DNA of 64,000 nucleotides, taken from positions 1 to 64,000 of the forward strand of contig JAPLDQ010000003.1 of NCBI GenBank assembly GCA_026391675.1, read 5' to 3'. Each line of letters starts with the position of its first letter. Within the stretch, counting starts at the first letter, position 1. The notes beneath the pieces are model-generated. The model was given only the letters and a program-made list of their open reading frames with translations, ran no database searches and had not been told where the DNA came from. Below, in pieces: positions 5,123-21,781 of the stretch. The translations under genes were made by a program, and so were the position numbers. This stretch comes from Bacteroidota bacterium (GTDB lineage: Bacteria; Bacteroidota; Bacteroidia; Bacteroidales; JACABE01).

Positions 5123-8100
5123 ATGAAAACCAATTACACGCTACAGACATTTACAGAATCAAATGCGGGTCAATCGAATGCTAAAGAAACTCTGAAATCT
5201 ACTAATCTGAAAAAAATATTACAAAAAATTGTGATGTTCAGCATTGCATTTGTGATAGTGAATTTTTTATTGGCTAATATTTCTTATGGACAGAAAACAT
5301 GGGATGGTGGAGGCGATGGCACAAACTGGAGCAGTGGAAACAACTGGAACCCGGATGGTTTACCTGCAAGTACGGATGCTGTTACATTAATTCAGGGACA
5401 AACAGTAAATGTGGATATAACAACTGCTGTTTGTGCTGCACTAAATTTAAGCCCTACAGGAGCTGGTACAGCAACGCTGCAATTCACCAATGGTTCAAAA
5501 TTAACTGCTTCAGGAATCGTAACATTAGGACAGAGTGGAAATACCAATCGGATAGGTGCATTGAACATGACAAACTCAGGCACTTTAAGTTGTCAGGGTT
5601 TGGCGCTTGGAAATGCAGGAGCAAATACTTTTACTCCTGGAACTGGTAAAATTGAATTGACAGCAAACAATACTTTGCCTTCAACTATTTTTACGAGTTT
5701 TAATAATTTAACTATAAATGGAGGAACAACTACTGCGGGCATTGGTCTGACAATAACAGGCAATATGACTATAACTTCAGGCACTTTTGCTGCCTCAACC
5801 TATTTACATAATATTGCAGGTGACTGGACCAATAACGGAACATTTACACAGGGAACATCCACCATTAATTTCAATGGAACGAATTCACTTCAAACCATTA
5901 GTGGAAGCTCAACATCCACTTTTTATTGGTTAAAGGTTACTAAAGGTGCACAAGACAGAATACTTGAAGCAACAGGATTAATAGGTTTATCTGCACCATC
6001 AAATCCTTTGATTATAACTAGCGGTACATTTAAATTATCAAGTGCTTCAACAATAGCCCCTTTTACATCTAATGCAGGAGCTGTAATTCCAGCAACTGGA
6101 GGATTCTGGAATAACGGTGGTACAATTACAGCAGGAGCATATTCTTGGGGTGGGACCACAGCAATTGCCGGTTTAGTTAGAAATACATCTGGTACGTTTG
6201 GCATTGGAAGTGCTACTGGTAATTCACTTGCTTATGCTGCAGGATCTATTTTCACTATAGAAGGTGGTGTTGTAAACATAGCAGGCAGTTATAGAGGAAG
6301 CGGAGCTATTTCATTTAGTATGTCTGGAGGAACACTTAATGTAAATAATGTAGGAAATACAGCAGCAACAGCAAGTTTTGATATTTCTAATGCCGGATCT
6401 ACTTTTACCATGAGTAATGGAACAATAATAATAAACAATGAAAATACTAATGCTGCTCCTTTAGATTATAGAAACATTGCAGGAACTGTTAATATTACAG
6501 GTGGTACAGTTCAATTTGGAACAGCTGCAACAACAGGATCACCAACATATGTAGTTGGGGTAACAGGGACAACAAATATTTTACCAAGTCTTTCGCTGGT
6601 TAAAGCGGCCACATCTACTACAGTAACTATAGCTGCTCCGGTCACTATAAATGGAAATGTTACAGTACCCACCGGAACTACATTTGCTGCAGCAAGTCAA
6701 GCAATATCTGTTACAGGTAATGCCTCACCAGGAACCTTTGTTGGTGATTGGACCTTAGGAGGGACATTTACGCCTGGTACACAAACGGTAACTTTTAATA
6801 GTACTTCAGCACAACAAATTACAGGAGCTACTGCATTCAGTAGTCTTACTTTAAATAATGCAAATGGACTAAGTATTAATAATGATGTAACAATAAATGG
6901 AACGCTTACTTTTACAAGTGGAAAAATAACTACTGCAGCCAATAAATTAATTCTTGCCAATGCTGCAACTGTATCTGGTGCTGGCACTGGTTGGGTTATA
7001 GGGAATCTTCAGCAAGGTTTTGCAAGTGGAGTAACTTCTTATACTTTTGCAATAGGAAATGCCGGCAATTATTTACCTTCAATTTTAAATTTTGCAGGTA
7101 CAGGAACCACAAATGCCACTGGTAAAATTACTGCAAGTACTACAAATGGCCAACAACTGAATTATGCAACTTCAGGACTCAGTCAATCAAAATATATAAA
7201 CAGGTATTGGACTCTTACTAACTCGGGTGTTACTATTAATACTACTTATGGTGCTACCTTTACTTTTGTTAATTCTTCAGATTATATTGGTTCACCGACA
7301 ATAGCCAGTCTGGTTGTTAAAAAATATGATGGTTCTTGGTCATTGCCCACACAAGGTACACCAACTGCCACAACAATTGCATGTTCAGGCTTAAGTACTT
7401 TCAGTGATTTTGCTGCAGGAGAAGACTGTACAACGCCTTCTTCGCCTACTACCGCAACAATGAGCCCTTCAAGTCCTGCATGTGCTGGTCAAACACTTAC
7501 ATTAAGCGGAGCTGCATCGGGTGGCACTGATGCCGGTTGTACGATAGAATACCAATATTCTACAGATAATGGAGTAAACTGGAGTACTCCCGGTTCATCC
7601 ATTCCTTCATTTACGGCAGTAACAGGGAACAATATTATTCAGGCAAGAAGAAATACATGCTCAACAGGATGCGGTGGTACTTATCCAACAGCATGGAATA
7701 CTGTTGCAAGCTGGACTGTGAATGCTTTACCTTCGGCTCCTGGAGTAGGAACTATCACACAGCCAAGCTGTACAACAGCCACAGCCAGTGTTGAATTAAG
7801 CGGTCTGCCTTCAGGCAACTGGACCATCAATCCGGGAGCTATAGCAGGGTCTACAACGACTACTACCCTTTCGGGTTTAGCAGCAGGCAGCACCCATACT
7901 TATACTGTTACCAATTCTGACGGATGTACATCAGTAGCTTCAGCAGCTATTGTTATCAATACAATTCCTGCTCCACCATCTGCACCGATAGTAGGAACCA
8001 TCATACAACCAAGCTGTACAACAGCCTCAACCAGTGTTGAATTAAGTGGCTTGCCTTCCGGAAACTGGACCATTAATCCCGGAACTATAGCAGGTTCAAC

Positions 8101-11100
8101 AATTACTACAACACTTTCAGGATTAACGGCAGGAAATCATAATTATACAGTAACCGATGCCAATGGCTGTACTTCAACAGCTTCAGCAAATGTAAACATA
8201 GCTTCCCCGCCTGAGAATGCACCTGTGACTTCAGTTTCAAACGTTAGTATTTGTGATGGAGCCACTTTCGTGGATATTCCTGTAACTGTTGCCGGATTTA
8301 CCAATAGTGTATCCGGTATTTCACTCACCATGACCTACGATCCTTTGCAACTGGGAACGCCCACACTACAATCAAATCCTTTAGGATTAACATTAAACCT
8401 TCCATCGGACGGTGTTATTAAAATAGGTGGTTTTGCCCCGGCCGGACAGGGATATAATTTAACAGGGAATACATTGGTTATCATACGTTTCACTAAAGCA
8501 ACACCTATTACTGCAGGTAACATTGCATTTGATGATGCCAACGGAGTTGATTGTGAATATTCAAAATATGATCCAGCTGATCCTTTTGCTTATCTGGCTT
8601 ATTGTGATAATCCTGCTTCAACCTATTATATTAGCGGCGGTGTAACCGTAAATCCATTGCCAACTGCAAGTATCAGTGGCAACAACAGTCCGATATGTGC
8701 AGGCAATATTGCAGTATTCATTCTCAGCGGTACTACTAATGCTATTGTTACCTATTCTCTGGATGGAGGAGCATCAACATCAACAATAACACTTACAGGA
8801 GGAACGGCTACTATAACCGTAAATAATGCTGTTGTTAATCAAACGCTATCTTTAATAGCTGTTGCCGATGCTAACTGTTCTCAAGGTTTAACAGCGACTT
8901 CAACAGTAACTGTTAATCCTTTACCCTACGACCTTCAAATAACAAATGGATTACAGGCTTTTTATTCATTCAGCGGCAATGCCAATGATGAAAGTCCGAA
9001 CCATTATAACGGAACGGTTTATAATGCCACATTAACATCCGACAGAAATGCCAATGCAAACAGTGCATATAGTTTTAACGGAAGTAATACTTATATTGAT
9101 TTAGGAGATCAGGATAATTTAAATCCTCATCTGGGAAGTATAACCGTTTCTGCATGGGCAAAAAAAGCAAGCTTAGATCAGCATGCCAGAATTTTCTCTA
9201 AAGGAACATCCGGAGGAATACAAACAGGTTATGCTTTAATGTTTTATGGAGGGGGTTACCCAACACCTGCAGCTGTAATTTTCAATGCAAACGGACATGA
9301 ACATGTTCTTTACTCTGATAATCCGATAAATGATTTATTATGGCATCATTATGCAGCAGTTATAAACAGAAATGGTAATATTAATCTCTATGTTGATGGT
9401 GTTAAGCAAAATAACTTTATTGATATTTCAGATCATGCCAGTATTGATATTGGTGTAAATACTTATAATGCTACTATCGGTGCTTCTTATAGTAATTATG
9501 GAAGTCCGGGACCAGTAAATGAATTCTTTAATGGAAATATTGATGAAGTTGCTGTGTATAATCGTGCACTTTCTGATAATGAAGTTAAAACCCTTTATTA
9601 CCAGAAACCAAGGGTTGATGTAGCTGCAAATCCAATTTGTTATAATACTTCAACCATGATTTTACTAAATCATTCACAAAACGGAATTTCCTATCAATTA
9701 AAGAAAAATGGATCTGACGAAGATGTTGCTCAGACAGGAAACGGAAACACGTTGACTTTCAGTACCGGTATTTTAACTTCAAACGCATCATTTACTTTCC
9801 TTGCAACTGACCCAACAAGTGGATGTACAAATTTACTCGATCCAAACCTGACGATAACTGTTAATCCTTTACCAACAGTAAGTATTGATGGTAATAATAG
9901 TTCGATATGTTCGGGAAATAATGCTGTATTTAATTTAAGCGGAACAGCTGATGCTGTTGTTACCTATTCATTGAATGGAGGCTCAACAACGTCCACTACA
10001 ACATTAACAGGAGGAAGTGCAATAGTAACAGTTAACAATGCAAGTTCAGATCAAACACTGACACTAATAAATGTAACAAATCCAGTAACAAATTGCTCAC
10101 AAGCATTAACTGTAACATCAACAGTTACTGTTAATCCTGTACCAGTATTTTCGATTTCAGGAAATAATATAGTATGTGCTGGATCAACTGAAGAATATTT
10201 GAATCCGCCGGTTGTAAATACTGTTGTCTGGTCAGTTTCAGGCGGAACAATAAATTCAGGCTATACCAACATTTCAGACCCGATAAAAATTGACTGGGGA
10301 ACAGGCTCAACAGCCAGTATTACTGCTACCGAAACAAACGGATATGGTTGCTCTACAACACATACTATGGATATTACCATAAATCCATTGCCAACAGCAA
10401 GTATAGATGGAAACAACGATCCAATTTGTGCAGGAAATACAGCTATATTTTTACTTAGCGGGACTAGCGGTGCAGTAGTAACTTATTCTATGGATGGAGG
10501 AATATCAACATCCACTTTAACACTATCATCCGGGACTTCCTACATATATAGCAACGGAACTACAACTCAAACACTAACACTAATCTCTGTTTCAGATGCA
10601 AATTGCAGTCAGGCATTAACGGCTACTTCTACTGTTACTTTTATGCCATTCAGTATTACAGCCAGTGCTGGTACCAATGGAAATATTACGCCCAATGGAT
10701 TATCAACAATTTACTGTGGTAACAGTCAAACCTACAACTTCACGCCTGATGCTCATTATCATATAGCTGATGTGCTGGTTGACGGTATAAGCGTTGGGAC
10801 ACCTTCCAGCTATACTTTAAATAATGTAAATGCTAACCATACCATCAGTGTTAGTTTTGATATTGATATGTTTACACTTACTGTAACAAGAAATGGAATC
10901 GGTAGTGGTATTATATCAACCGGTGATGGATTTATTCATTGTGGATCAACTTGTAGTTATAGTTATCCGTATGGTTCATCAGTAAATTTATCTGCTATAG
11001 CCGATGCTACTTCTAACTTTGATGGTTGGGGTGGTAGTAGTTGTAGCGGTACATCCGGATGTACATTAACTATGGATGGGGACAAATCAGTATCAGCTAC

Positions 11101-14100
11101 ATTTTCAAGAATTTTATATACACTCACTGTAAATTATTCCGGTTCTGGTTCTGTTAGCAGCTCACCATCAGGTATAAGTTGTGGTTCAACCTGCAGTGCA
11201 CTTTATGTAACAGGAACATTAGTTACACTTACAGCAACTCCGGCATCAGGTTACCATTTTACAGGATGGACAGGTGGATGCTCAGGAACAGGAAGTTGCA
11301 ATATTCTTATGGATGCATCCAAATCAGTTACTGCTCATTTTGAACTGGATAATCATACGGTTAGCTTTAATGCCAATGGTGGCAATGGAACAATGTCTAA
11401 TCAGGTTTCTGCCATAGCTGCAAATCTTACAATCAATACTTTTACCCAAAATTGTTTCTCCTTCACAGGATGGAATACATTGGCCAATGGCAGCGGTACA
11501 GCATACAATGATGGACAATCCTATTCTTTCGCTGCAGATTTAACACTCTATGCACAATGGTTGGCAAACACACCTATTATTCCTGTATTTACTGCATTAG
11601 GACCCTATTGCCAGAATTCAGCTCCTGCTACTTTAGCTGGTATCAGTAACAATGCTATTACAGGAAGCTGGAATCCTGCCACTATTACAACAGCAATTGG
11701 AGGAACAACAACCTATACCTTTACACCGGATGCAGGACAATGTGCTACCACAAATACTATGACGGTGCTGATAAATGAACTGCCAACAGCAAGTATAAGT
11801 GGTAACAACAGTCCAATTTGTTCAGGAAACAATGCAGTATTCAATTTAAGTGGTACTACTGATGCTATAGTTACCTATTCACTGAATGGCGGAACAACAA
11901 CTGCAACAACAACATTAACAGGAGGAAGTGCAATAGTAACAGTCTATAATGCTATTATAAATCAGACATTATCATTAATCTCTGTAACAGATGCAAACTG
12001 TTCAGCAACATTAACAGCTAGTTCAACAGTAACAGTAAATGAAAAAACTGCGCATACAACTACCGTAACTACATGCGACAGCTATACATGGGCTGCACCT
12101 TTGGGAAATGGAAATACCTATACCGCTTCCGTAAGCGGTATTACTCATGAAAGCACTAATGCTGAAGGCTGTACCCATACTGAAACTTTAAATTTAACCA
12201 TAAACCACAGTTCAGCGCATACAACTACCGTAACTACATGCGACACCTATACATGGGCAGCACCTTTGGGAAATGGAAATACCTATACCGCTTCCGTAAG
12301 CGGAATTACTCATGAAAGCACTAATGCTGAAGGCTGTACCCATACTGAAACTTTAAATTTAACCATAACCCACAGCACAGCACATACTACTACTGTAACA
12401 ACCTGCGACAGCTATACATGGGCTCCTCCTTTGGGCGATGGAAATACTTATACTTCAACAGGTATATATACCCATGCAAGCACCAATGGAAGTGGTTGTA
12501 CTCATACTGAAACCCTGAATCTAACGATTAACCCTTTACCAACAGCTAGTATTAGTGGTAACAACAGTCCGGTTTGTTCAGGAAATAATGCTGTATTCTA
12601 TCTCAGCGGCACAACGAATGCTGTTGTTACATACAGCCTCAATGGAGGTACAACAACTGCGACTATAATTTTAACCGGAGGTTCAGCTACTGTTACTGTA
12701 AATGCAGCTACTGCTAACCAAACTTTAACATTAATTACAGTTAAAAATTCTACTACAAACTGTTCAAAAGCATTAACTGCAACTTCAACAGTAACGGTAA
12801 ATCCGAAACCAACATTGGCCACAGTAACGACTTCACCTGTTTGCGAAGGCAATACTACTACTGTTGTTTTGACAGGCCTGCTGCCTGGAGTTGCCGGTGT
12901 TGTATATTACACCATTGGAGCTAATGCTACTTCCACACTTTCATTTACTGCCGATGCAGGCGGAACATTCAGCTTTGCTTCTCCTGTGCTTACCCTGGCC
13001 GATGACGGTCTGAAAATCAGAGTCAGAAAACTGACAGTGGATGGAACTAACTGTGAAACAAACTTTGCTCTTAATGCAAAGATAGCTAATCTTAATGTCA
13101 GACCTAACCCAACACTGGCTACAGTAACAGCTGCCCCTGTTTGCGAAGGAAATACTACCGAAGTGGTATTGACAGGACTGCTGCCTAACGTTGCCGGTGT
13201 TGCATATTACACCATTGGAGCTGATCCGACTTTAATTCCAAAACCAGGTACTGCAGATGCAAGCGGAACATTCAGTTTTACGACTCCGCTGCTTACCATG
13301 GCCGAAAACGGACTGGTTATCGAAATCAAAAAACTGAGAGTTAACGGAACTAACTGTGAAACCATTTTTACCGGAAAGACTGTTAATCTTGTTGTGAATC
13401 CATTACCTGTATTTTCAATTTCAGGAAACAACTTAGTTTGTGCCGGAACAACTGAAGAATATTTAAATCCACCAGTTTCTAATTCTGTTGTATGGTCAGT
13501 TTCAGGCGGAACAATAAATTCCGGCTATACCAACACATCAGACCCGATAAAAATAGACTGGGGAACAGGCTCAACAGCCAGTATTACAGCTACCGAAACA
13601 AATATATATGGATGTTCAACCACCCATACTATGGATATAACTATTAATCCATTGCCAACAGCCAGTATAAGTGGTAACAACAGCCCGATATGTGCAGGAA
13701 ATAATGCTGTATTTACTCTTACAGGAACACCTTCTGCAATCGTTACTTATTCACTGGATGGTGGAATAACCACTGCGACAACAACATTAACAGGAGGTAC
13801 AGCTACAATTACAATAATCAATGCCATTGTTAATCAAACACTGACATTAATTTCAGTAAATGATGTGAATTGTTCTCAGCCATTAACAGCTACTTCAACA
13901 ATTACTGTAAATCCATTACCGAAAGATATAGTAAAATCTAATGGTTTGGTAGCTTATTATCCTTTTAATAATAATGCCAATGATGAAAGTGGAAACGGGA
14001 ATAATGGTACGCTTTCTGGTCCTGTATCAGTAGCTGACAGAAATTCTAATCCAAACAGTGCTTATTATTTCAATGGTTATAATAATTATATTTTGGTAAA

Positions 14101-17100
14101 TGATCCGGTACCTGCTTCATTACAAATTCAGAATGAAATTACTTTATCTGCATGGATTTATGCTACTCAATATCCAGGTTATAATCATTTGGGGCTTATA
14201 GTTGGAAGCCAATGCGACGCTTGTGGTCATAGTGGTGCATCCATCTTCTTAGATGGAAGAACAGATCCTGACGGGATAACCTCACCTGCAGGTCATATTC
14301 ATTTCCAGATTGGAGATGGAGCTGGCTGGCATCATTCAAACTCAAATTCCCAGGTACCGCTGAATCAATGGGTGCATATTGTTGCTACAAGAAAAGCAAA
14401 CGAAGCGGCTAAAATATATTACAATGGTGTGCTTCAACCTGTAAATGGTTTATCATGGAATGGAAATATTGATTATTCAGGTGCATTTTTTGCAATGGGA
14501 AGACAGAAAGATATTTCTGACAGGTATTTCAAAGGGAGTATGGACGAAGTCCGGGTTTATAATAAGGCTTTGAGTTTATCTGAAGTATATACGCTTTATC
14601 AATCATCATTAACTGTTAATGTAAGTTCAACTTCTATATGTGAGAATGATGCTGCAACCATACAACTTTTAAATTCTGAAAACGGTGTATCTTATCAATT
14701 AAGAAAAAGCGGAATTGATGTTGGATCTGCCCAGTCTGGAAATGGAAATACCTTAACATTTAATACCGGTAATTTAACTTCAACATCATCTTTCACAATT
14801 AAAGCAACAAATATTACAACAAACTGTGATATTGTTTTAGATACAATTATAACCATAACAGTCAATCCATTACCAACAGCAAGTATTAGTGGTAATATCA
14901 ATAATGTTTGTTCAGGAATGAATGCAGGCTTTACTATTACCGGGACTACCGATGCTATAGTTACTTATTCCCTGGATGGAGGAACAACAACAGCTACTAC
15001 TACATTGACAGGAGGTACAGCATCAATAACTATCAGCAATATCATTACTAATCAGACACTTACATTAATAGCTGTAACCAATCCTGTAACCAATTGCTCA
15101 CAAGCATTGACAGCAACTGCAACTTTAACAGTTAATTCACTGCCGGTAGTTTCTATTGCTCCTGCTGGGCCATTGGCAATTTGTGCTGGAAGCAATACCA
15201 CGCTTACGGCTTCAGGTAGTTGCAACACTTATACTTTTTCCTTGAATATGTCAGGAGCTCAGGAAGTACCACCAATTATTAGTCCAGCTGCAGCAACAGG
15301 ATGGGGAACATTTAACAAACTTACAAACCAACTTACAATAATATATTTAAACTTCGGTATAACTGCTTCCGTAACTGCAGCTCATATTCACAAAGGTGCA
15401 GTTGGTGTAAATGGCCCGGTAATTACTCCTATTATCGGATTCCCGGTAGGAGTATTTACAGGTACAATCTATAATTTTAATATAAACATACCTCCTGCTG
15501 AAGTTACAGATTTGCTTTCTGGAAATACTTATATCAACATTCATTCGACGCTGTATCCTGGTGGTGAGGTTCGATCTCAGCTATTAATGAATCCTATCTG
15601 CACACCAATAGTTTCTTATTTATGGAGTACCAATGAAACAACAGCAGCCATTTCTGTTTCTACAGCCAATACTTATACAGTAACCGGAACAGATGCAAAT
15701 GGGTGTTCAAGTACAGCAAGCATTACAGTTTCAGTTAATCCATTACCAACAGCAAGTATTAGTGGTAACAACAGCCCGGTTTGTTATGGAAACAATGCTG
15801 TATTTAATCTTACCGGAACAACTGATGCCATTGTTACTTATTCTCTGGATGGTGGAACAACAACTGCTACTACAACATTAACAGCAGGAAATGCAACAGT
15901 TACTGTCAATAATATAATTTCTGATCAGATACTGACGTTAATTGCTGTAAATAATCCGATAACCAATTGCTCACAAGCTTTATCGGCAACTTCAACAGTA
16001 ACGGTTAATCCTATACCAACTGCCGGTATTATCGGCAACAATGGTCCTGTATGTTCAGGAAGTAATGCTGTTTTCAGCCTTAACGGGACTGTTTCAGCTG
16101 TTGTTACCTATTCATTTAATGGTGGAACGACCACATCAACCATTACTTTAACAGGAGGTACTGCAACAGTAACTGTAAGCAATGCAACTGCCAGTCAGAC
16201 ATTAACATTAGTGTCTGTATCAAAATCAGGATGTTCTCAGGATTTGACAGCAAGCTCAACAGTAATCGTAAATCAATGTACTGTTCAATGTAAAGACACA
16301 GTGCATGTATCCAATAATCTGGATGATGCAAGTATAATAGGATCATTAAGAAACGCACTGGAAAGGGTTTGTGATAATGGAGTAATCTATTTTGACATAG
16401 ATTGTCCCGGTCAAACAATAAACTTAACAAAAGGAAGTCTAATTGTTTCAAAGAATGTATTATTTGAATTCACAGACTGTCAAACATGCATTCCAGCTAC
16501 AACAGGTATAACCTTAAATGGAAGTGGTATTAATATTACTATCAATGCAGGTAAAACACTAACTTTATCAGGTTGTACTAAATTTACATTAACAGGCTGC
16601 ATTCAGAACAACAATGGCGTTAATGGTCTGGTATTGAACTCAGGGGCATCGTTTATATACAATTGCTGTAATTTACCAGCAACAGCAAAAAGGGATATGA
16701 CCAATGTTTGGCATTTATTTGGTTCACCATTTGTAAAGAACAGCGGCGCAACATTGGGTAGTCTTTATCCACCAAGCGGATATACCCAAATGATGCCATA
16801 TACCAATGGTACAGGATGGGGAATAACAACTACAGCTTCATTATTCCAGTTTACACCAACTGTTGGATATGCAGTTAAACCAAGTCTATCATTAACTGCC
16901 GTATTAAGTGGTTATCTTTTCTGTAATTCCATGGCACCTAACTGTGATTACTATGTGAATCTGGTTTACAGCGGAACTTCAGCATTACAGAGCTGGAATC
17001 TGGTTGCAAATCCATTCCCATCTTATCTGAACTGGAATTTATTAGGGAAAACGAGCCTGAATACGACCTTGTATTTGTGGGATAATAGTTTATGTTTGGG

Positions 17101-17938
17101 ATGTACACCGGTAACCAACGGGGCTTACATGAGAACCTACAATTCAGCTAATAATGTTGGGGTTCCTGCTAATACAAAGCCATATATTTCGCCAATGCAG
17201 GGATTCTTTGTAAAGGCAAATTATACGAATCCGAAAATAACCTTCCCGTTATCAGCAAGGACACATAGTACATCGCCCTATTACAAAGAAGCATCTACTT
17301 CGATAATAGTCCGCTTAAAGACAGAAACAGAAGGTGCAATGGATGAATTGGTCATCTGCAAAAATGATAATTCAGCTTTAGGATTAGAAAATTTTGACTC
17401 AGAAAAACTGTTCACAGATTTACCTTTATCAATGTATTCAGAAGCATCAACCGGAGAAAGGCTGGTTATCAATACCATCAACACTACAGCCAATACAGTT
17501 ATTCCTTTGGGATTAAAGGGTGAAGCAGGCATGAAGGCAAAAATAACAGCCTTTGCGCTTGAGAGTGGAGAACAGGTATATCTGGAAGACAGATTAAGAG
17601 GAAAATTAATCAGTTTGACAGAAAATACAGCCTATGAGTTTGAATTCCCTACTGCTGCTATTCAGGGTAGATTCTTCATCAGGTTTGGAATGAATACTTC
17701 TCCAATAGCAAATTCAGGAATAAATGTATTTGAAAACAACAGCGAACTCAACATCATTGCCCAAACGGGAGAAAATATCCAGACTGTTGAATTATATTCA
17801 ATAACAGGAGCATGTATATTCAAAACTACAGGCAACGGCAATACCTTTACTCAAAAACTGGATTTAGCCGAAGGTGTTTATATGGTTAGAGTAAAAACAT
17901 CGCTTTCAACACAAAATACAAAAGTAAACTGGAGATAA
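5123..17938 (+). CDS. Giant (4271 aa) T9SS-dependent modular surface/adhesin-like protein
   Basis: Single uninterrupted frame; hydrophobic N-terminal signal region; about 9 copies of a NPLPTASISGNNSPICSGNNAVFxLSGT PKD/Ig-like unit; two LamG-like domains; cohesin-like domain; InlB-like and Listeria-Bacteroides-type repeats; CHRD domain; C-term sorting domain INVFENNSELNIIAQTGENIQTVELYSITGACIF. Confidence 0.9.
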   Translation: MKTNYTLQTFTESNAGQSNAKETLKSTNLKKILQKIVMFSIAFVIVNFLLANISYGQKTWDGGGDGTNWSSGNNWNPDGLPASTDAVTLIQGQTVNVDITTAVCAALNLSPTGAGTATLQFTNGSKLTASGIVTLGQSGNTNRIGALNMTNSGTLSCQGLALGNAGANTFTPGTGKIELTANNTLPSTIFTSFNNLTINGGTTTAGIGLTITGNMTITSGTFAASTYLHNIAGDWTNNGTFTQGTSTINFNGTNSLQTISGSSTSTFYWLKVTKGAQDRILEATGLIGLSAPSNPLIITSGTFKLSSASTIAPFTSNAGAVIPATGGFWNNGGTITAGAYSWGGTTAIAGLVRNTSGTFGIGSATGNSLAYAAGSIFTIEGGVVNIAGSYRGSGAISFSMSGGTLNVNNVGNTAATASFDISNAGSTFTMSNGTIIINNENTNAAPLDYRNIAGTVNITGGTVQFGTAATTGSPTYVVGVTGTTNILPSLSLVKAATSTTVTIAAPVTINGNVTVPTGTTFAAASQAISVTGNASPGTFVGDWTLGGTFTPGTQTVTFNSTSAQQITGATAFSSLTLNNANGLSINNDVTINGTLTFTSGKITTAANKLILANAATVSGAGTGWVIGNLQQGFASGVTSYTFAIGNAGNYLPSILNFAGTGTTNATGKITASTTNGQQLNYATSGLSQSKYINRYWTLTNSGVTINTTYGATFTFVNSSDYIGSPTIASLVVKKYDGSWSLPTQGTPTATTIACSGLSTFSDFAAGEDCTTPSSPTTATMSPSSPACAGQTLTLSGAASGGTDAGCTIEYQYSTDNGVNWSTPGSSIPSFTAVTGNNIIQARRNTCSTGCGGTYPTAWNTVASWTVNALPSAPGVGTITQPSCTTATASVELSGLPSGNWTINPGAIAGSTTTTTLSGLAAGSTHTYTVTNSDGCTSVASAAIVINTIPAPPSAPIVGTIIQPSCTTASTSVELSGLPSGNWTINPGTIAGSTITTTLSGLTAGNHNYTVTDANGCTSTASANVNIASPPENAPVTSVSNVSICDGATFVDIPVTVAGFTNSVSGISLTMTYDPLQLGTPTLQSNPLGLTLNLPSDGVIKIGGFAPAGQGYNLTGNTLVIIRFTKATPITAGNIAFDDANGVDCEYSKYDPADPFAYLAYCDNPASTYYISGGVTVNPLPTASISGNNSPICAGNIAVFILSGTTNAIVTYSLDGGASTSTITLTGGTATITVNNAVVNQTLSLIAVADANCSQGLTATSTVTVNPLPYDLQITNGLQAFYSFSGNANDESPNHYNGTVYNATLTSDRNANANSAYSFNGSNTYIDLGDQDNLNPHLGSITVSAWAKKASLDQHARIFSKGTSGGIQTGYALMFYGGGYPTPAAVIFNANGHEHVLYSDNPINDLLWHHYAAVINRNGNINLYVDGVKQNNFIDISDHASIDIGVNTYNATIGASYSNYGSPGPVNEFFNGNIDEVAVYNRALSDNEVKTLYYQKPRVDVAANPICYNTSTMILLNHSQNGISYQLKKNGSDEDVAQTGNGNTLTFSTGILTSNASFTFLATDPTSGCTNLLDPNLTITVNPLPTVSIDGNNSSICSGNNAVFNLSGTADAVVTYSLNGGSTTSTTTLTGGSAIVTVNNASSDQTLTLINVTNPVTNCSQALTVTSTVTVNPVPVFSISGNNIVCAGSTEEYLNPPVVNTVVWSVSGGTINSGYTNISDPIKIDWGTGSTASITATETNGYGCSTTHTMDITINPLPTASIDGNNDPICAGNTAIFLLSGTSGAVVTYSMDGGISTSTLTLSSGTSYIYSNGTTTQTLTLISVSDANCSQALTATSTVTFMPFSITASAGTNGNITPNGLSTIYCGNSQTYNFTPDAHYHIADVLVDGISVGTPSSYTLNNVNANHTISVSFDIDMFTLTVTRNGIGSGIISTGDGFIHCGSTCSYSYPYGSSVNLSAIADATSNFDGWGGSSCSGTSGCTLTMDGDKSVSATFSRILYTLTVNYSGSGSVSSSPSGISCGSTCSALYVTGTLVTLTATPASGYHFTGWTGGCSGTGSCNILMDASKSVTAHFELDNHTVSFNANGGNGTMSNQVSAIAANLTINTFTQNCFSFTGWNTLANGSGTAYNDGQSYSFAADLTLYAQWLANTPIIPVFTALGPYCQNSAPATLAGISNNAITGSWNPATITTAIGGTTTYTFTPDAGQCATTNTMTVLINELPTASISGNNSPICSGNNAVFNLSGTTDAIVTYSLNGGTTTATTTLTGGSAIVTVYNAIINQTLSLISVTDANCSATLTASSTVTVNEKTAHTTTVTTCDSYTWAAPLGNGNTYTASVSGITHESTNAEGCTHTETLNLTINHSSAHTTTVTTCDTYTWAAPLGNGNTYTASVSGITHESTNAEGCTHTETLNLTITHSTAHTTTVTTCDSYTWAPPLGDGNTYTSTGIYTHASTNGSGCTHTETLNLTINPLPTASISGNNSPVCSGNNAVFYLSGTTNAVVTYSLNGGTTTATIILTGGSATVTVNAATANQTLTLITVKNSTTNCSKALTATSTVTVNPKPTLATVTTSPVCEGNTTTVVLTGLLPGVAGVVYYTIGANATSTLSFTADAGGTFSFASPVLTLADDGLKIRVRKLTVDGTNCETNFALNAKIANLNVRPNPTLATVTAAPVCEGNTTEVVLTGLLPNVAGVAYYTIGADPTLIPKPGTADASGTFSFTTPLLTMAENGLVIEIKKLRVNGTNCETIFTGKTVNLVVNPLPVFSISGNNLVCAGTTEEYLNPPVSNSVVWSVSGGTINSGYTNTSDPIKIDWGTGSTASITATETNIYGCSTTHTMDITINPLPTASISGNNSPICAGNNAVFTLTGTPSAIVTYSLDGGITTATTTLTGGTATITIINAIVNQTLTLISVNDVNCSQPLTATSTITVNPLPKDIVKSNGLVAYYPFNNNANDESGNGNNGTLSGPVSVADRNSNPNSAYYFNGYNNYILVNDPVPASLQIQNEITLSAWIYATQYPGYNHLGLIVGSQCDACGHSGASIFLDGRTDPDGITSPAGHIHFQIGDGAGWHHSNSNSQVPLNQWVHIVATRKANEAAKIYYNGVLQPVNGLSWNGNIDYSGAFFAMGRQKDISDRYFKGSMDEVRVYNKALSLSEVYTLYQSSLTVNVSSTSICENDAATIQLLNSENGVSYQLRKSGIDVGSAQSGNGNTLTFNTGNLTSTSSFTIKATNITTNCDIVLDTIITITVNPLPTASISGNINNVCSGMNAGFTITGTTDAIVTYSLDGGTTTATTTLTGGTASITISNIITNQTLTLIAVTNPVTNCSQALTATATLTVNSLPVVSIAPAGPLAICAGSNTTLTASGSCNTYTFSLNMSGAQEVPPIISPAAATGWGTFNKLTNQLTIIYLNFGITASVTAAHIHKGAVGVNGPVITPIIGFPVGVFTGTIYNFNINIPPAEVTDLLSGNTYINIHSTLYPGGEVRSQLLMNPICTPIVSYLWSTNETTAAISVSTANTYTVTGTDANGCSSTASITVSVNPLPTASISGNNSPVCYGNNAVFNLTGTTDAIVTYSLDGGTTTATTTLTAGNATVTVNNIISDQILTLIAVNNPITNCSQALSATSTVTVNPIPTAGIIGNNGPVCSGSNAVFSLNGTVSAVVTYSFNGGTTTSTITLTGGTATVTVSNATASQTLTLVSVSKSGCSQDLTASSTVIVNQCTVQCKDTVHVSNNLDDASIIGSLRNALERVCDNGVIYFDIDCPGQTINLTKGSLIVSKNVLFEFTDCQTCIPATTGITLNGSGINITINAGKTLTLSGCTKFTLTGCIQNNNGVNGLVLNSGASFIYNCCNLPATAKRDMTNVWHLFGSPFVKNSGATLGSLYPPSGYTQMMPYTNGTGWGITTTASLFQFTPTVGYAVKPSLSLTAVLSGYLFCNSMAPNCDYYVNLVYSGTSALQSWNLVANPFPSYLNWNLLGKTSLNTTLYLWDNSLCLGCTPVTNGAYMRTYNSANNVGVPANTKPYISPMQGFFVKANYTNPKITFPLSARTHSTSPYYKEASTSIIVRLKTETEGAMDELVICKNDNSALGLENFDSEKLFTDLPLSMYSEASTGERLVINTINTTANTVIPLGLKGEAGMKAKITAFALESGEQVYLEDRLRGKLISLTENTAYEFEFPTAAIQGRFFIRFGMNTSPIANSGINVFENNSELNIIAQTGENIQTVELYSITGACIFKTTGNGNTFTQKLDLAEGVYMVRVKTSLSTQNTKVNWR
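8212..8650 (+). other. Cohesin-like domain within giant CDS
   Basis: ENAPVTSVSNVSICDGATFVDIPVTVAGFTNSVSGISLTMTYDPLQLGTP..GVIKIGGFAP; resembles the cohesin-like domains of the upstream gene. Confidence 0.55.
8926..9610 (+). other. LamG-like (concanavalin-type) domain
   Basis: GLQAFYSFSGNANDESPNHYNGTVYNATLTSDRNANANSAYSFNGSNTYIDLGD..SITVSAWAKK..NEFFNGNIDEVAVYNRALSDNEV. Confidence 0.8.
10650..11560 (+). other. Cluster of InlB B-repeat-like and Listeria-Bacteroides-type repeat modules
   Basis: LTVNYSGSGSVSSSPSGISCGSTCSALYVTGTLVTLTATPASGYHFTGWTGGCSG..DASKSVTAHFE; VSFNANGGNGTMSNQ..FTGWNTLANGSGTAYNDGQSYSFAADLTLYAQW. Confidence 0.75.
12051..12530 (+). repeat. 3 x 165-bp in-frame tandem repeat (55 aa units)
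   Basis: AHTTTVTTCDSYTWAAPLGNGNTYTASVSGITHESTNAEGCTHTETLNLTI; cgcatacaactaccgtaactacatgcgac at 12051 and 12216, diverged copy at 12381. Confidence 0.9.
13918..14600 (+). other. Second LamG-like domain
   Basis: GLVAYYPFNNNANDESGNGNNGTLSGPVSVADRNSNPNSAYYFNGYNNYI..ITLSAWIYATQYP..FKGSMDEVRVYNKALSLSEV. Confidence 0.8.
15226..15590 (+). other. CHRD domain inside giant CDS
   Basis: TFSLNMSGAQEVPPIISPAAATGWGTFNKLTNQLTIIYLNFGI..AAHIHKGAVGVNGPVI..YINIHSTLYPGGEVRSQL matches the CHRD consensus. Confidence 0.8.
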
Positions 17939-17991: not shown

Positions 17992-18027
17992 AAAAGCCTT
18001 GCAAATTTGATTTGCAAGGCTTTTTTT
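17992..18027 (+). terminator. Second intrinsic terminator
   Basis: AAAAGCCTTGCAAAT-TTG-ATTTGCAAGGCTTTT followed by TTT. Confidence 0.85.
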
Positions 18028-18142
18028 GGGGAGTTGCAGGTTCTACAACTCTATTCTAAAACACTTTATTTTCAATACTTTGAATAATATATTTATAATA
18101 TTAGCATTATTTTTGTTTTACACATTTATTTATTATTTATTA

Positions 18143-18357
18143 TCATTGTTGTCCGGTTAAAATAATTTTAATGTAAAGAACACCCATATTTTATTATGTC
18201 CCTACGGGACATTAAAAAAAGCAGGGTTTTTTTTTCTACCAACATTTTATCCCTACGGGATTGTCCCGTTAGGGACATGATATTGGTAGAATGCATGTTA
18301 TAATAAAATCTGAACGTCCCGTTAGGGACGTGATAAAGTTTAACCGGACAACAATGA
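18143..18357. mobile_element. MITE-like non-coding element, 215 bp, 19-bp perfect TIRs, 7-bp flanking direct repeat
   Basis: TCATTGTTGTCCGGTTAAA (18143-18161) / TTTAACCGGACAACAATGA (18339-18357); flanked by TTTATTA at 18136-18142 and 18358-18364; internal GTCCC(T/G)...GGGAC palindromes. Confidence 0.65.
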
Positions 18358-18603
18358 TTTATTATAACAATTATAAGGTTAAAACCTTCATAACATAAAG
18401 GTTGCCAATCTTCTTTATCAGATGACCAGTTTCATGGTATAAAGTTTGATTATCAGATTACTCCCCATTGGTGTAAGTTGGAAAAGAGAAAGAGAGTTTA
18501 GACTCTAAAATAAATTATATCAATGAAGACTAAATAAAAGACGATTTTTTTAGTAAATGGAAAGTCTTTTTGAAATTATTTTTTTCAACAAGAAATAAAT
18601 ACT

Positions 18604-21258
18604 TTAATCTCTCACTATCAATTTAGTTTTTAATCTAAGGTCTTCTGATGAACTTCCTATTTGTAATTCATATTCCCCGGCTTCTATCAAATAATCATCA
18701 TCAGATTCACTGAAATATTTGAGATCATCTGCTTTAAGTAAAAAATCAACTTTGACCGACTCTCCTTTTTTTATATTTATTCTTTTAAATCCTTTTAACG
18801 ATTTTAAGGGCTGAGGCAATTTTGAACTCAGGTTTCTCACATACAACTGAACGACCTCATCACCATCAAAATTTCCTGAATTCTTTACAGTAAAATTAAT
18901 AATTACTGATTCCTTTTTATTAATGCTGGTTTTTGATATTTTAACCGCAGAATATTCAAAACCAGTATAACTTAAGCCAAAGCCAAATGGAAATAAAGCT
19001 TTACCCCTGAAGTATTTATAGGTACGTCCTTCCATAAAATAGTTCTCAAATTCAGGAAGATCATTTACCGATTTATAAAAAGTAACCGGTAATCTACCGG
19101 CAGGATTATAATCACCAAATAAGACATCAGCTACTGCATTTCCGCCTTCCTCACCCGGATACCAGGCTTCTACAATTGCAGGAATATTCTCATTTTCCCA
19201 GTTTATACTTAATGCGCTTCCGTTTGTAAGCACAATCACGATTGGTTTACCACAAGCTTTTAATGCTTTGATCAAGGCAAGTTGTTCTTCAGGTAAATCA
19301 AGACAAACTCTGTCGCCTCCTTTAAAACACTTTAGATTTATTGACATTTCTTCGCCTTCAATGTTAGAAGAAATCCCTGCAAATACAATGGTTACATCTG
19401 CATTTTTTGTCATAGAAACAGCTTTAGCAAACAATGTTTCTTTTGTTTCAGCTTCCTCTTCTGAATTATCTTTTTTCCAGCGAAAACGGATTCCGGCATA
19501 ATCTATACTATCAGCAAATTCCATCCTAATATTGTAGGCTTTACCTTTTTCCATCTTTACTTTTGCAGTCTTCATAACATTCATCTCATAAGGTCTCCAG
19601 TTATTTATTAGCAGCTTGTCTTCAAAATACAAACGACTTCTGTCATCTGAAACTATACCCAAATCATAATTACCAGTTTCGGGAGGTGTTATGCTTCCTG
19701 TCCAGCGGACTGAAAATAAATCCGGAGGTACCTTAGGTGCCGGAGCGTTTTTATCCCAATAAAATTCCATATTGGTATCAATTTGAATATAAACAGGATT
19801 TCCGTTTAGTTCAGGGTTGTCAAAATATTCGCCTTTTAATCCTGATTTACTATCAGGTGTTTTCAGAAAGTCAGAAGGAACTGTTGTTAAAGCACCTCCT
19901 TCATCATAAGGCATGACACCTTTTGTAAATTCAACTTTTACCTTATCACCCAGCTTATTTTTAATACCTTTTAAGAAAGTAACAGGATTTTTTGAAATCC
20001 CGTTGTAATTTCCATACAAAACATCTTCCCGTTGAATATAAGGTCCTATTACTGCAATTGATTTAATCTTATTCCTGTCAAGTGGAAGCAAATTATTCTG
20101 GTTCTTAAGCAAGACAATACTTTCATGCGCTACTTTTAATGAAAGGTTTCTATGTTCTGAAGATTCTATTTCAGAGGCAGGAATATCAGAATAAGGGACT
20201 ATTTCAGGAGGATCAAACATTCCGAGTTTCATTCTGGCAATCAGAAGATGTGAGAGCGCAATATCAATTTCTTTTTCGGTAATATAAGACTTATGAACAG
20301 CTTCTTTTAAGGCTTTGTATTCTGTCCCGCAAGTAATGTCACAACCTGCTTTTACAGCCATGGCAGAAGCTTTTGCCTCATCAGCTGCATATTTATGACC
20401 AACATAAATATCTCCTATTGCACCACAATCTGAAACCACATAACCTTTAAAACCCCATTTCTTTCTTAAAATATCCTTTAATAATAAATCACTGGCACAA
20501 CAGGGAACTCCCTGATAGCTTGAATAGGCACCCATTACTGAAAATGCGCCTCCTTCTTTAATACAAGCCTCGAAAGCAGGCAAATATGTTTCAAACAAAT
20601 CTCTTTTGGAAGTTTTCGCATCAAACTGATGTCGCAAAGGCTCAGGACCAGAGTGAACAGCATAATGTTTGGGTGTTGAAATGAGTTTAAAATATTTCGG
20701 ATCGTCACCCTGTAATCCTTTAACAAAAGCAACACCTATGCGCGAGGTTAAATAAGGATCTTCACCATATGTTTCCTGGCCTCTGCCCCATCTTGGATCT
20801 CTGAAAATATTTATATTTGGTGACCAGAATGTTAATCCTTTATGAACTCCTTTGATATCATTTTTTCTGATACATAAATAATACCAGGCACGAGCTTCTG
20901 TAGATATTACATCAGCTTCTTTCTTTATAAGATCTGGATTCCAAGTAGCTGCCATGGCAATAGCCTGGGGAAATACAGTAGCATTACCTCCTTCATTTAC
21001 AATTCCGTGCAGACATTCGCCACTCCAGTTATAATAAGGAATATCAAGCTTTGGTATTTCAAAAGCTTCATGTTGCATTTGCTGAATCTTTTCATCCAGT
21101 GTCATTCGGGAAATCAGATCTGCCACCCTGACCTCGAAAGATAAAGAAGTGTTTTTATAGGCTGGATTATCCTGTGCCTTAATGACATTAACATTAACTA
21201 TCAATAAAATAATAGTAAATAAGGATAGTTTTATTCTAATTTTCGCTGATTTTTCCAT
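18604..21258 (-). CDS. Glycoside hydrolase family 3 (beta-glucosidase/xylosidase-like) with PA14 insertion and C-terminal FnIII-like domain
   Basis: MTLDEKIQQM; FSPNINIFRDPRWGRGQETYGEDPYL; nucleophile motif GYVVSDCGAI; PA14-like GLKGEYFDNPELNG..SDDRSRLYFEDKLLINNW. Likely start is the internal Met MEKSAKIRIKL with signal peptide (ORF extends to 21303). Confidence 0.93.
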   Translation of the reverse strand: MEKSAKIRIKLSLFTIILLIVNVNVIKAQDNPAYKNTSLSFEVRVADLISRMTLDEKIQQMQHEAFEIPKLDIPYYNWSGECLHGIVNEGGNATVFPQAIAMAATWNPDLIKKEADVISTEARAWYYLCIRKNDIKGVHKGLTFWSPNINIFRDPRWGRGQETYGEDPYLTSRIGVAFVKGLQGDDPKYFKLISTPKHYAVHSGPEPLRHQFDAKTSKRDLFETYLPAFEACIKEGGAFSVMGAYSSYQGVPCCASDLLLKDILRKKWGFKGYVVSDCGAIGDIYVGHKYAADEAKASAMAVKAGCDITCGTEYKALKEAVHKSYITEKEIDIALSHLLIARMKLGMFDPPEIVPYSDIPASEIESSEHRNLSLKVAHESIVLLKNQNNLLPLDRNKIKSIAVIGPYIQREDVLYGNYNGISKNPVTFLKGIKNKLGDKVKVEFTKGVMPYDEGGALTTVPSDFLKTPDSKSGLKGEYFDNPELNGNPVYIQIDTNMEFYWDKNAPAPKVPPDLFSVRWTGSITPPETGNYDLGIVSDDRSRLYFEDKLLINNWRPYEMNVMKTAKVKMEKGKAYNIRMEFADSIDYAGIRFRWKKDNSEEEAETKETLFAKAVSMTKNADVTIVFAGISSNIEGEEMSINLKCFKGGDRVCLDLPEEQLALIKALKACGKPIVIVLTNGSALSINWENENIPAIVEAWYPGEEGGNAVADVLFGDYNPAGRLPVTFYKSVNDLPEFENYFMEGRTYKYFRGKALFPFGFGLSYTGFEYSAVKISKTSINKKESVIINFTVKNSGNFDGDEVVQLYVRNLSSKLPQPLKSLKGFKRINIKKGESVKVDFLLKADDLKYFSESDDDYLIEAGEYELQIGSSSEDLRLKTKLIVRD

Positions 21259-21781
21259 GACTTTAATTTTAAAGGGAAAAGCAAATCTTTTATTTAATGA
21301 CAAAGGTATAACTTAATTTGTTTGAAATGCATCAATTGAAACATCAATTGTCTAATTAACAGCATTTTTCAATCATGATTCCCCGCTAATACCAGCGTCA
21401 GTATCACTACTTAATACCGACCATAAAATGGAAAAATATTTTTCTTTCAACAGACTTAATTACATTGAAAAACGAAGTGACAGAACAAAATGTAAGTATT
21501 GATACATTAATAAATGATGATGTCTGGAAACAGAATCAGATTTTTAATATATAATTTGATTATCAACTAATTATCATAATATAATTTCAATTGAATAATA
21601 CAGGGTCTACTACTATATCCTTAAACACTTTATATTCAATACCTTCCATACCTATAGAAGAATATATTTATTAATTTTGTTTACAGCTTAAAATTACGCA
21701 TTTACTGTTAAATATTTAACTGACGATTTACAAATTGTTAATAAATTGTTTAAAATAATATTTTTATTAATTTTTTTTATA

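Follow-up and report, generated by a model that had tools for sequence, protein, structure and literature searches.

A probable IS4-type MITE carrying a REP-type hairpin doublet in a Bacteroidota bacterium

Elements of the IS4Sa subgroup of the IS4 family are 1150-1750 bp in size, have ends of the form CA------T, and are flanked by direct repeats of 8-10 bp (PMC2266710). The spread of REP palindromes is described, in one account, as still poorly understood (PMC8266576), and subclass 1.2 of the Y1 transposases was reported by Quentin et al. without REP-type structures (PMC6006769, 2018). Here, we describe a locus in which features of both kinds are found together, at positions 18144-18356 of the window, i.e., the whole stretch of 64,000 nucleotides of a Bacteroidota bacterium that was analyzed. 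We interpret the locus, with a probability of about 0.82, as an IS4-type MITE with a REP doublet as its cargo, brought to this site in trans by an IS4Sa-like DDE transposase. The MITE thus likely combines two mobility systems in one chimeric element, which is found repeatedly across the Bacteroidota.

The element, its boundaries and its copies

The original prediction, made from the window alone, placed perfect 19-bp TIRs around an element of 215 bp, with the 7-bp repeat TTTATTA directly outside both ends. The inverted pair is present at this site; however, the lengths had to be changed. Comparison with related elements sets the true end of the MITE at the C of CATTG, and the outermost T/A of the supposed 19-bp TIR is target sequence rather than a part of the MITE. 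A 7-bp target-site duplication (TSD) with a 19-bp TIR was rejected, since this appearance results from a target whose first base is A and whose last base is T; moving the ends to CATTG gives a TSD of 9 bp. The element and its surroundings comprise the following features.

18144 to 18356 (no strand): MITE, 213 bp; the host copies C15:1298 (98%) and C15:170473 (96%) have the same ends, which were set by comparison with related elements
18135 to 18143 (+ strand): left TSD ATTTATTAT, 9 bp, an exact match to the right flank
18357 to 18365 (+ strand): right TSD ATTTATTAT, 9 bp, an exact match to the left flank
18144 to 18161 (+ strand): left TIR CATTGTTGTCCGGTTAAA, 18 bp, perfect; the exact complement of 18339-18356, with the same ends on IS4-family elements elsewhere
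18339 to 18356 (- strand): right TIR, 18 bp, the exact complement of the left TIR
17992 to 18024 (no strand): terminator-like hairpin in the spacer that separates the giant gene from the MITE, outside the MITE

Apart from the pair at the two ends of the element, the window contains no TCATTGTTGTCCGGTTAAA or exact complement of it, even when three mismatches are allowed; the number of matches expected in shuffled sequences is 0.03. The element has the properties of a MITE: it is short (213 bp), bounded by perfect 18-bp TIRs and non-coding, as no ORF of at least 90 aa overlaps it. As predicted, it lies between convergent genes, a giant ORF at 5123-17938 (+ strand) and a GH3 gene at 18604-21303 (- strand). 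The giant ORF is one open frame of 4271 aa. The only close orthologue of the GH3 gene, in genome G001, has a different gene order and other neighbours. The foldability that was proposed for the whole element also holds: compared to shuffles, the z-scores are -10.2 and -12.6 for the two strands folded as RNA and -10.0 for folding as DNA, and such strong folding is expected from the inverted repeats.

The host genome is a draft assembly of 4.04 Mb in 48 contigs. Full copies are found on C17 (the window), at C15:1298-1514 (98%) and at C15:170473-170688 (96%); the right end is missing from another copy, C31:28655, and there are older derivatives at C31:16613-16773, C4:47099, C31:18769-19157 and C4:9513. 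Exact 9-bp TSDs flank the window copy (ATTTATTAT), C15:1298 (ATTCCTAAT) and C31:16613 (ATTCCTGAT). The TSD of the full copy C15:170473 is imperfect (CTAATTAAT / ATTACTAAT, 6/9), and its flanks would fit ATTACTAAT with a loss of 3 bp on the left. Thus, several copies share their ends and a target duplication, and neither of the situations named beforehand as speaking against a mobile element, a single copy everywhere or copies with no common boundaries or TSDs, was encountered. The proposal of a non-autonomous element mobilized in trans agrees well with multiple copies, common boundaries, a TSD of fixed length in most intact copies, and an IS with the same TIRs elsewhere.

Target sites and partner transposases

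TIR-bearing loci were obtained by a pattern scan of 85,462 species genomes, for which the matches listed are a lower bound, and from 393 genomes of the host's order, 43 of which have a TIR match. The named records among the matches listed in the larger scan are nearly all Bacteroidota. For the analysis of TSDs, we used 73 inverted TIR pairs, spaced 100-520 bp, from these loci, mostly from other Bacteroidota. An exact 9-bp TSD was detected in 31 of these 73 pairs, which are not all independent (there are several copies per genome, and some pairs are nested or spurious), whereas random re-pairing of flanks yields 0.57 on average and never more than 5; for each of the remaining lengths between 5 and 12, exact matches were found in at most one of the 73. 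This comparison rejects the reservation of the original prediction that the duplication could be a coincidence of AT-rich flanks.

The target consensus of the TIR pairs among the matches listed is ATTNNNAAT, which accounts both for the T and A that flank the MITE, making the TIR seem 19 bp long, and for the location of copies in ATTCCTA-type arrays. The possibility that 7-bp tandem arrays are preferred for insertion in their own right was rejected, because the ATTNNNAAT target is itself present within the ATTCCTAAT arrays. A long run of short tandem repeats of the AATAACTC/AATAACCT type lies just downstream of the eroded host copy 16613-16773 on C31 (locus L005), and such short tandem arrays also flank other MITE copies.

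It should be noted that Salinimicrobium nanhaiense (L068, L096, L102, L129, L141) has six or more copies of a MITE of 222-225 bp that shares these ends, and exact 9-bp TSDs flank most of the copies; this is a hairpin-free sister type. Exact TIR-type matches also occur under non-Bacteroidota or borderline names, in a Micavibrio MAG (L095), a Balneolaceae MAG (L148) and a Victivallales MAG (L178), and may reflect either contamination or horizontal transfer. Spread by plasmids or phages was considered and rejected, since no plasmid matches to the MITE were found and viral contigs yielded no exact copy of the TIR.

In other genomes, the same TIRs bound elements of 1.40-1.43 kb with one gene each, encoding about 400-423 aa. 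The three partner proteins that were tested contain DUF4372 (PF14294) and DDE_Tnp_1 (PF01609) and score above the cut-off for the NCBIfam IS4 family; the YREK spacing is visible in partner transposase sequences, so that the partner elements in other genomes encode an IS4-family transposase with YREK. Exact 9-bp TSDs flank the partner elements L196 and L199. The ends, the direct repeats and the partner size all fall within the description of IS4Sa (PMC2266710).

The IS with the same TIR that the original prediction had sought is therefore found in other genomes and not in the host, where the TIR is present only on MITE copies; this result holds for a draft assembly and is not final. The resident IS4-family element of the host, C46:89015 (with a related fragment on C35), has related but different ends, CACTAGTGTCCACT. 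A further 12 genomes, selected because the doublet or the TIR is present in them, were searched and gave no convincing IS with matching ends. A partner IS in the same genome is usual for MITEs, not obligatory. The class of the enzyme that moves the MITE (IS4-type) is well supported, and the window copy was presumably mobilized in trans by an enzyme of this class, which would recognize the CATTGTTGTCCGGTTAAA ends, insert the MITE into ATTTATTAT, duplicate 9 bp, and prefer ATTNNNAAT as a target.

The interior doublet and Y1 transposases

The interior is arranged as hairpin A, spacer, TTCTACCAA, hairpin B, hairpin B', TTGGTAGAA, spacer and hairpin A', i.e., as two units of two hairpins each that mirror one another and have TTCTACC/GGTAGAA feet.

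18198 to 18210 (no strand): hairpin A, GTCCCTACGGGAC; an equivalent hairpin is present in relatives
18234 to 18291 (no strand): central REP doublet, consisting of foot TTCTACCAA, hairpins B and B', and foot TTGGTAGAA; R1 match (the window is in the training set) and covariation over 19 units
18249 to 18261 (no strand): hairpin B, ATCCCTACGGGAT; palindrome and covariation
18263 to 18276 (no strand): hairpin B', GTCCCGTTAGGGAC; palindrome and covariation
18316 to 18329 (no strand): hairpin A', GTCCCGTTAGGGAC; palindrome

The predicted internal inverted arms, 18188-18197/18300-18309 and 18235-18242/18283-18290, are present (about 0 expected), and so are the four palindromes that had been assigned to the GTCCC/GGGAC type, at the coordinates of the four hairpins, except that the second is ATCCC/GGGAT. 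The GTCCC/GGGAC palindromes of the MITE are far above chance as well (about 0 expected). These nested palindromes are not incidental; they constitute a conserved REP-doublet module that the original prediction had missed.

Relatives of full or nearly full length, in which the TIRs are similar and the parts are arranged in the same order, are found in other genera and families: G041, G162, G173 and G146 (the last two with a TSD of 9/9), Flavobacterium and Lutibacter records, and Bacteroidales. The stems vary among relatives (GTCCC, ATCCC, GCTCC, GTTCC, GCCCT and others), yet they stay paired. In an alignment of 19 central units, a set that was picked partly for hairpins, which favors the result (the members obtained by BLAST or TIR only, such as G041, G141, G146, G224 and L137, were not so picked), 92.3% of cells pair, compared to 34-45% when the partners are slid; changes on both sides are found in 13 of 22 pairs, and the covariation score was reached in none of 500 shuffles.

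We also used R1, a covariance model of the central doublet unit, which has matches in 18 of 59 genomes, the host included. Across 424 kb of loci, most of them fetched by TIR alone, all R1 matches are in or against TIR-bounded elements, usually near the center; the matching loci outside the training set are L081, L111 (two), L115, L138, L173 and L208. Many IS4-type MITEs are without the doublet. As in REPs, paired inverted palindromes with a conserved foot are present; the GT[AG]G foot is not directly at the hairpin base, as GTAG lies several bases away.

Five Y1_Tnp (PF01797) genes are present in the host. One of them, C31:43237, is flanked by doublets with this layout, and such doublets also adjoin the broken copy C16:44538 (with two TAA inside) and are found downstream of the Y1 gene C30:53033; the location beside a Y1 transposase gene that is typical of REPs thus applies to the module and not to the window copy. 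Among relatives, 6 of 45 distinct R1 places are within 1 kb of a Y1 gene, with about 0.1 expected (P about 1e-9), the true weight being less, as three of the six are at one G041 gene. R1 matches at E<0.01 are present at 9 of 34 Y1 loci. The dispersed doublets often have a convincing TIR and TSD pair of the IS4 type (G000, G030, G021, G141, G073, G173 and G146), for which a random control gave 24 of 2000, some of them in real MITEs. The signature of subclass 1.2, Y---Q--HH, is present in 8 of the 9 Y1 proteins at doublet-matching loci. Its association with doublet presence is not significant (8/24 versus 1/10, p=0.22); only a narrower type of Y1 protein, picked after seeing the data, gives p of about 1e-3 to 1e-4.

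Other arrangements were observed around these genes and modules. For example, L040 (G040:C302:18383-18660) contains REP doublets that are repeated head to tail every 79 bp, close a contig and have no IS4 ends, and in L065 (G000:C21, upstream of 43631) a Y1 gene follows an array of other hairpins (AAAGTCCGTAGGACTTT, GCTGCAGAGCAGC) with a repeat of about 252 bp, a different REP type. A genome of the host's genus, G003, has five Y1 genes with identical scores and open frames of 164 aa (C12, C23, C36, C56), which suggests a recently active IS200-like element.

We infer from these comparisons that the doublet originated in a REP system associated with Y1 and was captured before it spread across the Bacteroidota. 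Its hairpins would be maintained through their recognition, as folded single-stranded DNA, by a protein, which is most simply Y1.

Alternative explanations and known systems

The role of Y1 is dispensable if the element is a plain IS4-derived MITE, in which the hairpins are independent or persist only because they stop transcription from entering the MITE, and the likeness at Y1 genes is due to landed MITE fragments. Such a scenario accounts for the many hairpin-free MITEs with the same ends and for the R1 matches being weaker near Y1 genes than in MITEs. However, the feet and the layout are common in detail, none of the six Y1-side doublets examined has a convincing TIR and TSD pair, the proximity of doublets to Y1 genes is far above chance, and doublet arrays without IS4 ends exist, as in G040; we therefore consider a plain MITE unlikely. 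Conversely, a REP/BIME-type element might be spread by a Y1 transposase alone, the TIRs being the outer part of a larger palindrome. The nested palindromes and the five host Y1 genes, some with the same module alongside, point in this direction, whereas the TSDs largely refute it, as a fixed 9-bp TSD is unexpected from Y1 transposition (IS200/IS605); since the TIRs are, in addition, common to IS4-family elements and hairpin-free MITEs, this pathway is highly improbable.

The position between convergent genes and the strong predicted RNA folding could, in turn, indicate a host regulatory or terminator element for these genes, which the original prediction had kept as its alternative, or a structured RNA. 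No intrinsic terminator (a GC-rich hairpin followed by a T run) was found inside the MITE, the terminator-like hairpin being outside, at 17992-18024, and no Rfam family reaches its curated score for the MITE, so that a terminator or Rfam RNA was rejected; moreover, copies are at unrelated loci. We consider a function of this kind for the host extremely unlikely.

The packaged REP doublet in an IS4-type MITE can be extended to a phylum-wide stable alliance, in which a substrate doublet of Y1 (subclass 1.2-like) would be dispersed by an IS4-type DDE transposase via added TIRs, and the upkeep of hairpins by Y1 would explain the covariation of stems. This extension is possible, if doubtful; were it true, REPs would have a second route of spread, and a Y1 subclass that was reported without a REP partner would have one. 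Short of such an alliance, a REP doublet in a TIR/TSD shell with a readable 9-bp footprint represents a directly testable route for REP spread, and a REP-like partner for Y1 subclass 1.2 is suggested. For annotators of Bacteroidota, the family is recognizable by its ends CATTGTTGTCCG, the 9-bp TSD and the TTCTACC/GGTAGAA doublet. In the literature searched, we recognized no description of this MITE type or of REP doublets in IS4 MITEs.

Among the described systems, IS4Sa (PMC2266710) shares the CA ends, the T at position 9, the 9-bp TSD, the partner of 1.40-1.43 kb and the DDE transposase with YREK; unlike IS4Sa, the MITE has no transposase gene and has a conserved REP doublet as cargo, and its assignment to the subgroup is based on the ends, the partner size and the TSD length. 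BrickBuilt of Porphyromonas gingivalis (PMC4596501) is likewise a Bacteroidota MITE with a repeat as cargo, although its ends are IS5-like and it carries a 23-nt minisatellite instead of a REP doublet. Another Bacteroidota MITE, MITECca01 of Cardinium (PMC9769881), has IS982-like ends. The interior resembles REPs, REPINs and BIMEs with Y1/RAYT transposases (PMC3733652, PMC3116915, PMC6006769) in its paired inverted palindromes, its GTAG-containing foot, and its occurrence both beside Y1 genes and dispersed. It differs from them in that the foot is several bases from the hairpin, there are two hairpins per unit and few copies here, many doublets are inside IS4-type ends, and the matching Y1 signature (subclass 1.2) was reported without such structures.
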